DNA of 64,000 nucleotides from Allobacillus saliphilus (GTDB lineage: Bacteria; Bacillota; Bacilli; Bacillales; Alkalibacillaceae), in contig NZ_JAGSIE010000015.1 in assembly GCF_018138385.1 (NCBI RefSeq), positions 1 through 64,000 of the forward strand, given 5' to 3'. Made by a program: the position numbers and the translations under genes. Under the pieces are notes generated by a model that was given only the letters and a program-made list of their open reading frames with translations, had not been told where the DNA came from and searched no databases. Numbering within the stretch: position 1 is the first letter of the stretch; the number at the start of each line of letters is the position of its first letter. Below are positions 42,333-45,116 of the stretch, piece after piece.

Positions 42333-43229
42333 TTAAACTTGTTTATGTAAATTTTGCAGCTCGTCTAATTTGAACAATGCTTTTTGGTAATACTGATTTT
42401 CTTCGGTCAAATCAAAAACTTGCTTTGCTTTTCGAAAGAATTCAAGTGCTTGAACGGTTTGCTCAATTTCTTCATATGCTCTTCCAATAATGAAATATAA
42501 ATGGCCCATTCCATATAAAGATCGATTATTTCTACAAGAAGTTAGCCCTTTTTTCGCGTGATCGATCGTTTTTTCGTAATTTGAGATCATTAGGTTACAA
42601 CGAGCCAGATTATATCGAATCATAATTTCAATATTATGATTACGAATGATTGGTAGTTTTTTAACAGAGAAAAGCAGATCTTCATAAAGGTCAATTGCTT
42701 GCTTATATTGTTTAAAGTCTACTAATATATTTGCTTTATTGATTAAAATTTCGATCTCTCGCTCGGATTTGACCTTTTGGTTTGTGTTGAATAAAAATAA
42801 CGCTTCATTAAGTAAATCTAGCGAGGCGTCCAGGTCTTTATCAACATACCTTTTACACAGAGCCTTATGCCATAGAATGAATTGTTTGAAACGTCTATTT
42901 TCATATAAGGGAGTTTTTTCTTCTTTCTCAATTAAAGCTTTCAATCCTGTGTAATTATCTTGAATGACCATTTCCCTTGCTTGGATTTCCACTTCAAGCG
43001 AGTAATCCATGCGTTCAGGAAAAGTCGTATCATAAAAGTAATTGACATCCACACCGAGCCGTTCGGCAATTTTGAATAAAATATCTGCAGCGATGGCGAG
43101 AGATCCATTTTCAATTTTACTAATATAGGCTTGTGTACATATCCCATCACATAACTCCTTCTGTGTCATATGAAAGTATCTTCGTAAATCATAGATTTTT
43201 GATCCGATATCCTCTCGATTATCTATCAA
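42333..43229 (-). CDS. XRE-HTH regulator with TPR domain (RRNPP / PlcR-NprR-like)
   Basis: A 298-residue cytoplasmic regulator. Residues 8-65 are an XRE helix-turn-helix (KIYDLRRYFHMTQKELCDGI, then TQAYISKIENGSLAIAADIL). The rest is helical repeat: about five TPR units, such as FKQYKQAIDLYEDLLFSVKK, ISNYEKTIDHAKKGLTSCRN and GMGHLYFIIGRAYEEIEQTV. This is the architecture of peptide-sensing PlcR, NprR and related RRNPP proteins. A TTG start with GGGGGTG upstream is used. A small exported-peptide gene is divergently encoded 182 bases away, which supports peptide control. Confidence 0.85.
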   Translation of the reverse strand: MIDNREDIGSKIYDLRRYFHMTQKELCDGICTQAYISKIENGSLAIAADILFKIAERLGVDVNYFYDTTFPERMDYSLEVEIQAREMVIQDNYTGLKALIEKEEKTPLYENRRFKQFILWHKALCKRYVDKDLDASLDLLNEALFLFNTNQKVKSEREIEILINKANILVDFKQYKQAIDLYEDLLFSVKKLPIIRNHNIEIMIRYNLARCNLMISNYEKTIDHAKKGLTSCRNNRSLYGMGHLYFIIGRAYEEIEQTVQALEFFRKAKQVFDLTEENQYYQKALFKLDELQNLHKQV

Positions 43230-43324
43230 AATTCTGCACCCCCTTACAAAATTTTCTTAAAAATATTCCGATGTTTATACTTTTTGAGAAAAACGTAGAA
43301 AACGAAAGGAAATCACCTCTTATT

Positions 43325-43346
43325 CGGCTCAAATCGGGCTCAATCG
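43325..43346. promoter_or_regulatory. Direct repeat in the regulator-peptide gap
   Basis: CGGCTCAAATCG is followed at once by GGGCTCAATCG. The two halves lie between the divergent genes and could be a regulator binding site. A PlcR-box (TATGNAN4TNCATA) is not present. Confidence 0.35.
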
Positions 43347-43411
43347 CAAATCCATCTAATTTGATAGTATGATAGATTTAATTTAAATCAACTAACAAAG
43401 GAGGGTCTCGA

Positions 43412-43561
43412 TTGAAAAAGTTTTTGAGTCTTGTCGCTGTTGTTCTTATTGTCTCTAGTCTCTATGGCTTTGACGTCAGCCAAGAAAACACGTCTGAAGA
43501 AGCATTTGTTACCATTCAAGGCATTGGAAAGGATAACAATGATCTCGGTTCGCTTGACTAA
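43412..43561 (+). CDS. Secreted pro-peptide, 49 residues, candidate RRNPP signalling peptide
   Basis: A TTG start sits 6 bases after AAAGGAGGG, one of the best ribosome sites in the window. The product opens MKKFLSLVAVVLIVSSLYGF, a Sec signal peptide (basic N-region, hydrophobic core), followed by a short acidic linker (DVSQENTSEE) and a tail AFVTIQGIGKDNNDLGSLD. Size, signal peptide and short C-terminal tail match the pro-peptides PapR and NprX. It diverges from the XRE-TPR regulator, and its transcript ends at a terminator 40 bases later, so it is a separate mini-gene. The mature peptide is probably within the last 5-10 residues; this is inference. Confidence 0.7.
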   Translation: MKKFLSLVAVVLIVSSLYGFDVSQENTSEEAFVTIQGIGKDNNDLGSLD

Positions 43562-43601
43562 TTGTTAGTTGCAATCTACAAAAGATACAACCATCCATAT
43601 C

Positions 43602-43636
43602 GGGCTACCCCGCAGTTTTGGTAGCCCTCTTTTTTT
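43602..43636 (+). terminator. Terminator of the peptide gene
   Basis: GGGCTACC-N10-GGTAGCCC followed by TCTTTTTTT. Confidence 0.9.
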
Positions 43637-43739: not shown

Positions 43740-45116
43740 ATGGTTCACCAGCAAGTGAAGAATCGATTAAAGGTTTCGCCAGAAGAATTCTTGGAAGGTT
43801 ATCGTTATATCGAGGAAGCGATGAATCAATCAGACTCCTACGAAGACGCTCTACAACACATATTAAAATACTTTGACCGAAAACTGACTGGCACATACAG
43901 TGCAATTATGATTGTCGATGAGAAGAAGGAATTTATTCAAGAGTGTATCTCGAATGGGTTATCTGAAGAATTCAAGAAGGCCTTTTGCGGGATGCTTATT
44001 GATGAAGGCATTGTCTCTAATGCTACCTCCATTCGGACAGGCAGCGTAACTTATACAGAAAACATTTCGAATGACTTACGTGGGGATGTTTTCAGTGATC
44101 TTCCTGATTTACTTAAGTTGAGCTCTTGTAGATCTATACCGATCTTCGACTACCGCGATAATGAAGTGCTTGCTGTATTTACTATTTTTTCGAAGCAATC
44201 TCATTCACCTACCAATCGTGAAGTAGAAATCGTCAAATCCTTCCGTTCGCTATTAACATTGTTAATTACAAATTATATACAGTCCGAACTAATGCGAGTT
44301 GATTTTCCGTGGATGAATAAAATTAAAGAACCAAAATCACAAGCTGAAGAGGAATTTAAATGTGAACTATTAAAAGCTATTGAAAATAAAGAAATCAAGC
44401 CATTCTATCAACCTCTATATCAGATGGATACGAACCGAATCTATGGTTTTGAAGCGTTAGCTCGATGGGATCACCCACAAAAAGGAATCCTCCCGCCAAG
44501 TGAATTTATCGAGTATGCAGAAGACCATCATATCATCGATTTAATCGACGACCTCGTAGTAGAGCAGGCTTGTGAAGATATCCAGCAGTTAAAGGAAAAA
44601 TATAACCAGGATTTCATCTTGTCTGTAAATATTTCAGCTCTTCATATTACACAATTAAACTTTTCAACAAAGTTAAAAAACATTTTACTGAAAACAAACT
44701 TTTCTGGAGAACAGTTGGCACTCGAAATTACTGAGACGGCTTTAATGCAACAAATTGGTTATGTTTCAAAAACAATTGATCAAATTAAACAGCTTGGGGT
44801 ACAAATCTCAATTGATGATTTTGGAACTTCGTACTCGTCATTGAATTATTTGAAGTATTTATCCGTTGATATGATTAAACTTGACCGTTCCTTTGTGCGA
44901 GATGTCGTCGACAACCCAGTCGATCAACGAATTTGTAAAACGATTATACAGCTTGCTGAAGATTTGAACTTAGAACTATTGGCTGAAGGAATTGAAACAA
45001 AGGAGCACTATGAAATCATTCGTAATTACGGATGCAAGATATTCCAAGGCTTTTACTTCAGTCACCCAGTCAAATTGGATGAAGTGAAGCAGCAGATTAT
45101 TAAACAACTAGCATGA
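43740..45116 (+). CDS. GAF-EAL protein, probable cyclic-di-GMP phosphodiesterase
   Basis: A 458-residue protein with no membrane segment. The N-terminal half (about 25-180) looks like a GAF sensor domain. The C-terminal EAL domain (about 205-455) has all catalytic motifs: GFEALARWDHP (EAL), LSVNISA (Asn), ALEITETAL (Glu), SIDDFGTSYSSL (DD), MIKLDRSFV (Lys), LLAEGIET (Glu) and FQGFYFSHP (Gln). It should cleave cyclic-di-GMP. GAGGGAGGGAG lies before the ATG. It is downstream of the peptide gene but has its own space; control by the RRNPP pair is a possibility. Confidence 0.88.
   Translation: MVHQQVKNRLKVSPEEFLEGYRYIEEAMNQSDSYEDALQHILKYFDRKLTGTYSAIMIVDEKKEFIQECISNGLSEEFKKAFCGMLIDEGIVSNATSIRTGSVTYTENISNDLRGDVFSDLPDLLKLSSCRSIPIFDYRDNEVLAVFTIFSKQSHSPTNREVEIVKSFRSLLTLLITNYIQSELMRVDFPWMNKIKEPKSQAEEEFKCELLKAIENKEIKPFYQPLYQMDTNRIYGFEALARWDHPQKGILPPSEFIEYAEDHHIIDLIDDLVVEQACEDIQQLKEKYNQDFILSVNISALHITQLNFSTKLKNILLKTNFSGEQLALEITETALMQQIGYVSKTIDQIKQLGVQISIDDFGTSYSSLNYLKYLSVDMIKLDRSFVRDVVDNPVDQRICKTIIQLAEDLNLELLAEGIETKEHYEIIRNYGCKIFQGFYFSHPVKLDEVKQQIIKQLA

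Follow-up and report, generated by a model that had tools for sequence, protein, structure and literature searches.

Background

The nearest characterised relatives of the system analysed here are PlcR of the Bacillus cereus group and its paralog PlcRa. The signal of PlcR, the PapR heptapeptide, is given as ADLPFEF, and its glutamate is reported to be bound by residues K89, Q237 and Y275 of the receptor, with K87 named in an earlier structure (PMC6568020); the DNA element of the system, the PlcR box, is given as TATGnAnnnnTnCATA (PMC2464732). An asparagine, conserved across the RRNPP family, is reported to hold the peptide backbone (PMC3601957). For the paralog, the signal CSIPYEY of PapRa is reported to align with the PapR heptapeptide, and papRa is described upstream of plcRa in B. 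cereus (PMC3519770).

According to a 2022 survey, the pheromone gene of Bacillales systems, among them PlcR, lies directly downstream of the receptor gene (PMC9765709); a 2024 paper reports that, in the family as a whole, pheromone genes may be found on either side, downstream or upstream (PMC11343458); and a 2023 survey gives the layouts per cluster in a figure (PMC10075063). Because papRa lies upstream of plcRa, downstream placement is not a defining character of the PlcR-like subfamily.

Results

A PlcR-like receptor beside a divergent mini-gene

The window is a stretch of 64,000 nucleotides from Allobacillus saliphilus (contig NZ_JAGSIE010000015.1, positions 1 to 64,000 of the forward strand). 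The features analysed are the following.

42333..43229, minus strand: regulator gene (298 aa, TTG start), for a PlcR-like receptor that is also a transcription regulator, with an XRE helix-turn-helix ahead of a TPR domain
43264..43279, no strand assigned: candidate operator TATTCCGATGTTTATA, of the form TAT-N10-ATA, 34 bp before the start codon of the regulator
43362..43370, plus strand: possible extended -10 TGATAGTAT of a mini-gene promoter, a tentative reading made by eye
43397..43405, plus strand: ribosome-binding site AAAGGAGGG of the mini-gene
43412..43561, plus strand: candidate pheromone propeptide gene, or mini-gene (49 aa, TTG start, Sec-type leader, tail DNNDLGSLD)
43562..43601, plus strand: 3' untranslated stretch before the terminator, nearly constant in Allobacillus, with a strongly conserved counterpart in four other genera
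43602..43636, plus strand: stem-loop followed by seven T, predicted to be an intrinsic terminator of the mini-gene, with a counterpart in 8 of 8 genomes (6 genera)
43740..45116, plus strand: GAF-EAL gene for a predicted cyclic-di-GMP phosphodiesterase, with synteny conserved in 6 genera

The start codons of the regulator and of the divergent mini-gene are 182 bp apart. An earlier, sequence-only reading of this DNA had described, at that distance from the regulator, a divergent gene of 49 codons with ribosome site, leader, tail and terminator, and all of these elements were confirmed in the sequence. It had also called the regulator PlcR/NprR-like: the likeness to PlcR holds by both sequence and structure, whereas the structural match to NprR is weaker.

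Pfam assigns to the regulator the domains HTH_3 (40.0 bits), RNPP_C (40.7 bits) and TPR_12 (40.3 bits), all above the curated cut-offs. Taken together with the helix pattern of the model, these place the XRE helix-turn-helix at the N-terminus and the TPR domain at the C-terminus, as expected of such a receptor. The protein is 98% identical to its counterpart in Allobacillus salarius and 94% to that in A. halotolerans. Its best solved sequence relative is PlcR (2qfc; 2.7e-21 by phmmer and 1.2e-39 with a profile), and the match spans its full length. An AlphaFold model (pLDDT 89.3, pTM 0.72) runs, over the 298 residues, from the helix-turn-helix through a linker helix to about 5 to 6 helix pairs. 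PlcR entries are the best Foldseek matches of this model (3u3w, 8.4e-12, TM 0.67); in VIA-align the best row is again PlcR (2qfc, Z 25.9, rmsd 10.8 over 282 residues), and 3u3w, also PlcR, gives Z 25.1, with an rmsd of 6.2 over 276 residues. Given the large whole-chain rmsd to PlcR, the domain orientation of the modelled regulator is tentative.

The family asparagine corresponds to N207 of the window regulator and is kept in at least 90% of 58 rows. By a hand count on one alignment, K89, Q237 and Y275 of PlcR correspond to D91, H243 and Y280, and K87 to I89, so that one of the three residues is kept; at the position of Q237, where the window has H243, glutamine is kept in four sister genera (L038-L041). 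That the glutamate-binding residues are mostly changed fits a changed peptide, and weakens the transfer of the PlcR binding mode to this receptor. Loss of the PlcR lysine would be expected if the peptide had lost its glutamate, as far as the single alignment can tell. Inspection of receptor pocket residues against tail type, by eye, gave no clear rule.

The mini-gene and its 3' stretch

The mini-gene codes for a peptide with the leader MKKFLSLVAVVLIVSSLYG, in which an N-terminal lysine is combined with a hydrophobic stretch; export of the Sec type was judged from charge and hydrophobicity. The locus thus shows, with predicted export, the RRNPP feature of a small propeptide with a C-terminal signal beside the regulator. 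The possible extended -10 at 43362..43370 is absent from the scan listing, and the stem-loop at 43602-43636 was not listed by a simple terminator scan; folding of the 36 bases preceding the T run gave -14.6 kcal/mol (a value taken without shuffle control).

When the mini-genes of the window, A. salarius and A. halotolerans are paired, 10, 13 and 14 base differences are found, 8, 10 and 11 of them at third positions. The last six residues of the peptide are constant across the three genomes, and positions 40, 41 and 43 of the propeptide differ between the window and A. salarius. Third-position changes and a constant tail speak against a reading in which the conserved unit is RNA, that is, a short transcript acting through its 3' part, with an incidental frame. 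What suggests such a reading is that, in four genera (L038-L041), the 3' untranslated stretch is on average 86% alike, compared with 73.5% for the frame. The frame, however, is open and ends in the same tail register in all six genera, and Rfam returned zero matches in six loci, so that we consider an RNA unit extremely improbable. Within the same four genera, this 3' stretch contains TCGTCCATA twice. As an addition to the pheromone role, the 3' untranslated stretch of the transcript is, by its sequence, a possible RNA element.

Layout of the pair in relatives

Regulator and mini-gene stand together in 8 genomes from 6 genera, in which the most distant regulators are about 50% identical and the mini-peptides retain both a leader and the tail (DLGSLD, DPGSLD, DLGAMD or DLGALD). 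Outside Allobacillus, the regulator has a divergent mini-gene next to it in Tenuibacillus, Aquisalibacillus, Filobacillus, Piscibacillus and the genome labelled G010, where the regulators are 50-56% identical to that of the window. The receptor profile was matched at 1e-30 by 184 of 397 genomes drawn from the order.

A scan of relatives, with one genome per species, yielded 79 distinct loci, corresponding to the best 80 of 232 confirmed stretches. Mini-ORFs were identified by a strict detector, which required a length of 30-60 aa, a ribosome site, K or R near the N-terminus and a hydrophobic stretch. A Sec-type mini-ORF was found divergently upstream in 43 of the 79 loci (the match at L053 being taken as a chance one), whereas shuffling of the upstream stretches gave 9 in 1580. 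Convergently downstream, one was found in 12 loci, against 17 of 1580 shuffles. On the same strand, mini-ORFs were found downstream in 2 of the 79 loci and upstream in none. For the tree and the tail counts, we discarded the upstream match of L053 and the downstream matches of L041 and L094 as chance events, and included L046, L105 and L110, which came from a search relying on the tail pattern itself. With the window and two G010 receptors also included, the tree holds 82 regulators: 45 divergent, 11 convergent, 3 same-strand and 23 for which no mini-gene was found.

The layout follows the receptor tree: the four layout classes need 6 changes on it, compared with a shuffled mean of 32.8. The tree was built by a quick method, which gave long-branch warnings, and its same-strand group is weakly supported (69); many rows are near-copies (seven, for example, of the Peribacillus type), so that the counts are not counts of independent events. 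In the smallest well-supported groups round the window, 8 of 9 and 11 of 12 rows are divergent, the sole other row being a second receptor copy in G010, and the Salirhabdus-Salinibacillus branch is divergent in 4 of 4. Conserved divergent neighbours with conserved tails had been put forward by the sequence-only reading as a test of the pair, and this is the pattern that these groups show.

Several other arrangements were observed. The second receptor copy of G010 (L128:6527-7492) lies beyond the EAL gene; the search for a mini-gene belonging to this copy gave none, and it may therefore listen to the pheromone of its neighbour. A branch of 16 rows (L057, L069, L071, L077 and others; 10 named Rossellomorea) contains PlcR-like receptors with no mini-gene found nearby: the pheromone may have been lost, be encoded at a distance or have a form that the detector misses. 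Convergent downstream mini-genes form one branch of eleven receptors, from Pseudalkalibacillus, Alkalihalobacterium and kin (L046, L047, L049, L051-L053, L055, L058, L061-L063), with the tails DLPYCH, DLPWCH or DLPHRH. At L022 (genome G015, of the same genus as G014), the receptor match is broken by stop codons while the divergent mini-gene is intact; the genome is 82% complete, and a sequencing error is possible. In the ELP branch (L054, L066, L073, L089, L114), similar proteins of about 100 aa (like MKIQPSF..ECAIVFSFYF) are encoded beyond the mini-gene on its strand, and may be the output there. In Salirhabdus and Salinibacillus (L045, L080, L018, L019), the mini-gene is followed by a 35-aa ORF with one hydrophobic span (MGTPERDVITLG..).

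A common register of the peptide tails

In the six EAL-linked genera the mini-peptides end in NDLGSLD, KDLGSLD, YDPGSLD, DDLGSLD, DDLGAMD or NDLGALD, in Alkalibacillus in DDLGTLD, DDLGSID or DDLGTID, and in Salinibacillus and Salirhabdus in DPGPVY, DPGPMF, DLGPRY, EPGPRH or DPGPVHG. Throughout the window branch, glycine replaces the proline of PapR, and in the EAL-linked genera and Alkalibacillus aspartate replaces the aromatic end. Among the wider relatives, the pattern [DE][LP][PG]xxx ends 43 of the 50 distinct mini-peptides; it is seen in 0 of 25 controls, mini-ORFs obtained by the same detector from 523,640 bases away from receptors. If L046, L105 and L110, selected by the tail pattern, are excluded, 42 of 47 distinct peptides are in register. 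Seven peptides are exceptions: three same-strand ones (L064, L067, L110) have LP with a different preceding residue, L060 and the Peribacillus type (two entries, one of them typed without its first residue) carry one extra end residue, and in L070 the motif is internal. Within some mini-peptides the signal is repeated (L066, L072, L089, L107 and L114, with ELPPMLTELPPML, ELPGLYAELPGLYK, ELPTVYHELPTVY and KELPTQF twice); these may be tandem pheromones of Peribacillus and relatives.

The leader and the neighbourhood, taken alone, would fit any small exported peptide, such as a bacteriocin or a stress peptide, controlled by the TPR regulator but not sensed by it. The tails make this very unlikely: the last six residues are the constant part of the peptide, they share the register of PapR, and from branch to branch the tail varies along with the receptor. 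The locus is thus very probably a conserved RRNPP receptor-pheromone pair of the PlcR-PapR kind.

A candidate operator between the divergent genes

An element of the form TAT-N10-ATA lies near the regulator, between the divergent genes, in 32 of the 33 regions first tested, compared with a mean of 2.4 and a maximum of 8 in shuffles, within an offset range (34-77 of the region as cut) that was fixed after the matches were seen. The remaining 12 divergent regions, looked at directly while the shuffle control covers the first 33, all carry it as well, giving 44 of 45; the one divergent pair without the element is that of Alkalibacillus aidingensis (L042). Convergent and same-strand receptors have TAT-N10-ATA in 3 of 14 cases and the CC core in none of 14. 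Receptors without a mini-gene show some TAT-N10-ATA match in 14 of 22 cases, and the CC core in two (L048, L050). The difference between 44 of 45 and 3 of 14 indicates that the element goes with the divergent layout.

In all 8 genomes of the six EAL-linked genera the 16-mer is TATTCCRATGTTTATA. Compared with the PlcR box, it keeps TAT, T11 and ATA, whereas T4, C6 and T13 replace G4, A6 and C13; since its interior is unlike the box, the system is classed as PlcR-like rather than as PlcR. Perfect copies of the 16-mer number one per genome in 6 of 7 genomes, the own genome among them, and two in Tenuibacillus (8 in total). Allowing up to 2 mismatches in the 7 genomes, 98 sites were found, these 8 included, against 82 for the reversed control; an 18-base pattern with up to 3 mismatches gave 13 sites in the own genome, against 8 for its reversed control, and no regulon is claimed from either search. 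Degenerate sites within the window occur at chance level, for two patterns, one of which does not match the element itself. Few perfect copies, with near copies about as frequent as in the control, point either to a circuit confined to the locus or to targets whose sites have diverged. The second perfect Tenuibacillus copy (L173; contig 8 of G021, near 247020) lies upstream of a gene whose product, about 370 aa long, has a leader-like N-terminus.

The GAF-EAL neighbour

The protein encoded beyond the mini-gene scores 248.7 bits with the Pfam EAL domain. The catalytic motifs of EAL phosphodiesterases, EAL, N, E, DDFG, K, E and Q, are retained by the 8 proteins aligned, except that G010 has EVL in place of EAL. 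In 6 of 6 genera (8 genomes), the mini-gene has a GAF-EAL gene behind it in the same orientation, which makes a cyclic-di-GMP output plausible. There is also precedent for a link between receptors of the PlcR kind and cyclic-di-GMP: PlcR of B. cereus is reported to control a GGDEF-family protein that also bears a phosphodiesterase domain (PMC2464732), and a B. thuringiensis mutant without three phosphodiesterases is reported to have a raised plcR transcript (PMC5816809).

Whether the gene is a target of the pair was weighed on several observations. It stays directly behind the mini-gene although identity of the EAL proteins has dropped to 38-41% in the five genera outside Allobacillus; the own genome encodes just two EAL proteins, beside three GGDEF proteins; and further perfect operator copies are absent in 6 of 7 genomes. 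Against this, a predicted terminator separates mini-gene and EAL gene in 8 of 8 genomes examined. Operator-like sites before the EAL gene, searched in 7 of the 8 gaps (A. salarius left out), are at chance level in 6; the Tenuibacillus gap has a site at three mismatches, equalled by 6 of 200 shuffles. Beyond the EAL gene lies a pterin dehydratase gene. Both Salinibacillus loci have this gene on that side too, although no EAL match was found there within 4 kb, so that gene order appears to be conserved here in general.

The link to cyclic-di-GMP, which the sequence-only reading had thought conceivable, is therefore backed by synteny in six genera, but neither an operator nor a shared transcript supports it. 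Control of the phosphodiesterase gene by the pair is quite possible, at somewhat less than even confidence. That the pair is real and the GAF-EAL gene is not its target, with adjacency reflecting inherited gene order and a regulon made of the pair itself or of distant genes, is a reading to which we give a modest degree of belief, somewhat above even. A wider proposal, according to which receptor, divergent pheromone gene and GAF-EAL gene form one inherited module of halophilic Bacillaceae, with a nearly private operator, through which cell density would set cyclic-di-GMP, with an RNA element perhaps at work in the 3' part of the pheromone transcript, is tentative and rather unlikely.

Discussion

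Proposed mode of action

The sequences show the gene pair with its conservation and tail register, and the element with its near uniqueness in the genome; the model shows the fold. From these we infer the steps that follow, from export and processing through import to the binding of peptide and DNA, and the sign of control. The mini-gene would give a propeptide exported by Sec, from which extracellular proteolysis would free a C-terminal peptide of about 6-8 residues, ending in DLGSLD. This would be brought back into the cell by an oligopeptide permease (six SBP_bac_5 proteins, of the oligopeptide-binding type, are encoded in the own genome), and would sit in the TPR groove of the regulator, held by N207. 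The peptide-bound regulator would then alter its binding to the TATTCCGATGTTTATA element between the divergent genes, the signal thereby controlling its own production and that of its receptor. Regulation of the GAF-EAL gene would be a further and weaker step.

The control is assumed to be activation, by analogy with PlcR. The opposite sign, with a regulator acting at low cell density and relieved by the peptide, is unlikely though worth considering: both signs are reported within the family, where PlcR and NprR are activated, and Rap and PrgX inhibited (PMC3601957), the two are not distinguishable from sequence, and the element, 34 bp from the regulator start codon, may overlap the regulator promoter. 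Yet the nearest characterised relatives, PlcR (PMC6568020) and PlcRa (PMC3519770), are both reported to be activated by their peptides, and activation remains the sign that we adopt.

Compared with PlcR-PapR, the pair is new in layout, tail and operator. The sequence-only reading had suggested a possible new pair; the pair itself is well supported, but it is one of many of the PlcR-PapR kind, and its layout has a precedent in PapRa. A full-text literature search with six tail strings gave nothing relevant, and the pair does not appear in titles or the first parts of abstracts dealing with divergent PlcR-like, PlcRa-like or Allobacillus systems; supplements and figures of the large surveys may list it.

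A salt-tolerant relative of Bacillus thus appears to hold an intact cell-to-cell signalling pair, in a back-to-back layout that recurs in its relatives. This divergent layout, with an operator-like element of its own, is the commonest among the PlcR-like receptors analysed (45 of 82, an uneven sample of the window's nearest relatives). For dozens of species the sequence gives the six C-terminal residues of the candidate signal, and the resulting series of receptors and peptides is suited to working out how specificity changed, from proline to glycine and from an aromatic residue to aspartate. The pair is also a candidate, open to direct test, for a connection between peptide quorum sensing and cyclic-di-GMP.

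Comparison with known systems

The Rgg-SHP systems of streptococci, which include divergent pheromone genes, share with the window an RRNPP regulator. They differ in export by PptAB and in a TPR sequence reported as not recognisable (PMC9765709), and their Foldseek fold score against the window regulator is below that of PlcR. NprR-NprX shares an RRNPP receptor with HTH and TPR and a small propeptide. NprR is, however, described with nine TPR and an extra three-helix bundle (PMC3601957, PMC9765709), which the window regulator does not have, and its structural match is weaker (4gpk, Z 17.7 in VIA-align, against 25.9 for PlcR).

PlcRa-PapRa shares the position of the propeptide gene, upstream of the receptor gene, and a PapR-like signal; PapRa differs in being 93 aa long, with the internal signal CSIPYEY, and a palindromic operator is reported as not found for PlcRa (PMC3519770).

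From PlcR-PapR, the window differs in a pheromone gene that is divergent upstream rather than immediately downstream, in the tail, where P is replaced by G and the final aromatic residue by D, in the residues reported to bind the PapR glutamate, mostly changed, and in the element, which is TATTCCRATGTTTATA instead of TATGnAnnnnTnCATA and lacks a set of perfect sites round the genome. The two systems share the domain order and fold of the receptor, its RNPP_C domain and the family asparagine, a 16-bp element of the form TAT-N10-ATA, and a small propeptide with a C-terminal signal, the tails of which are in the same register, ADLPFEF in the one and NDLGSLD in the other.
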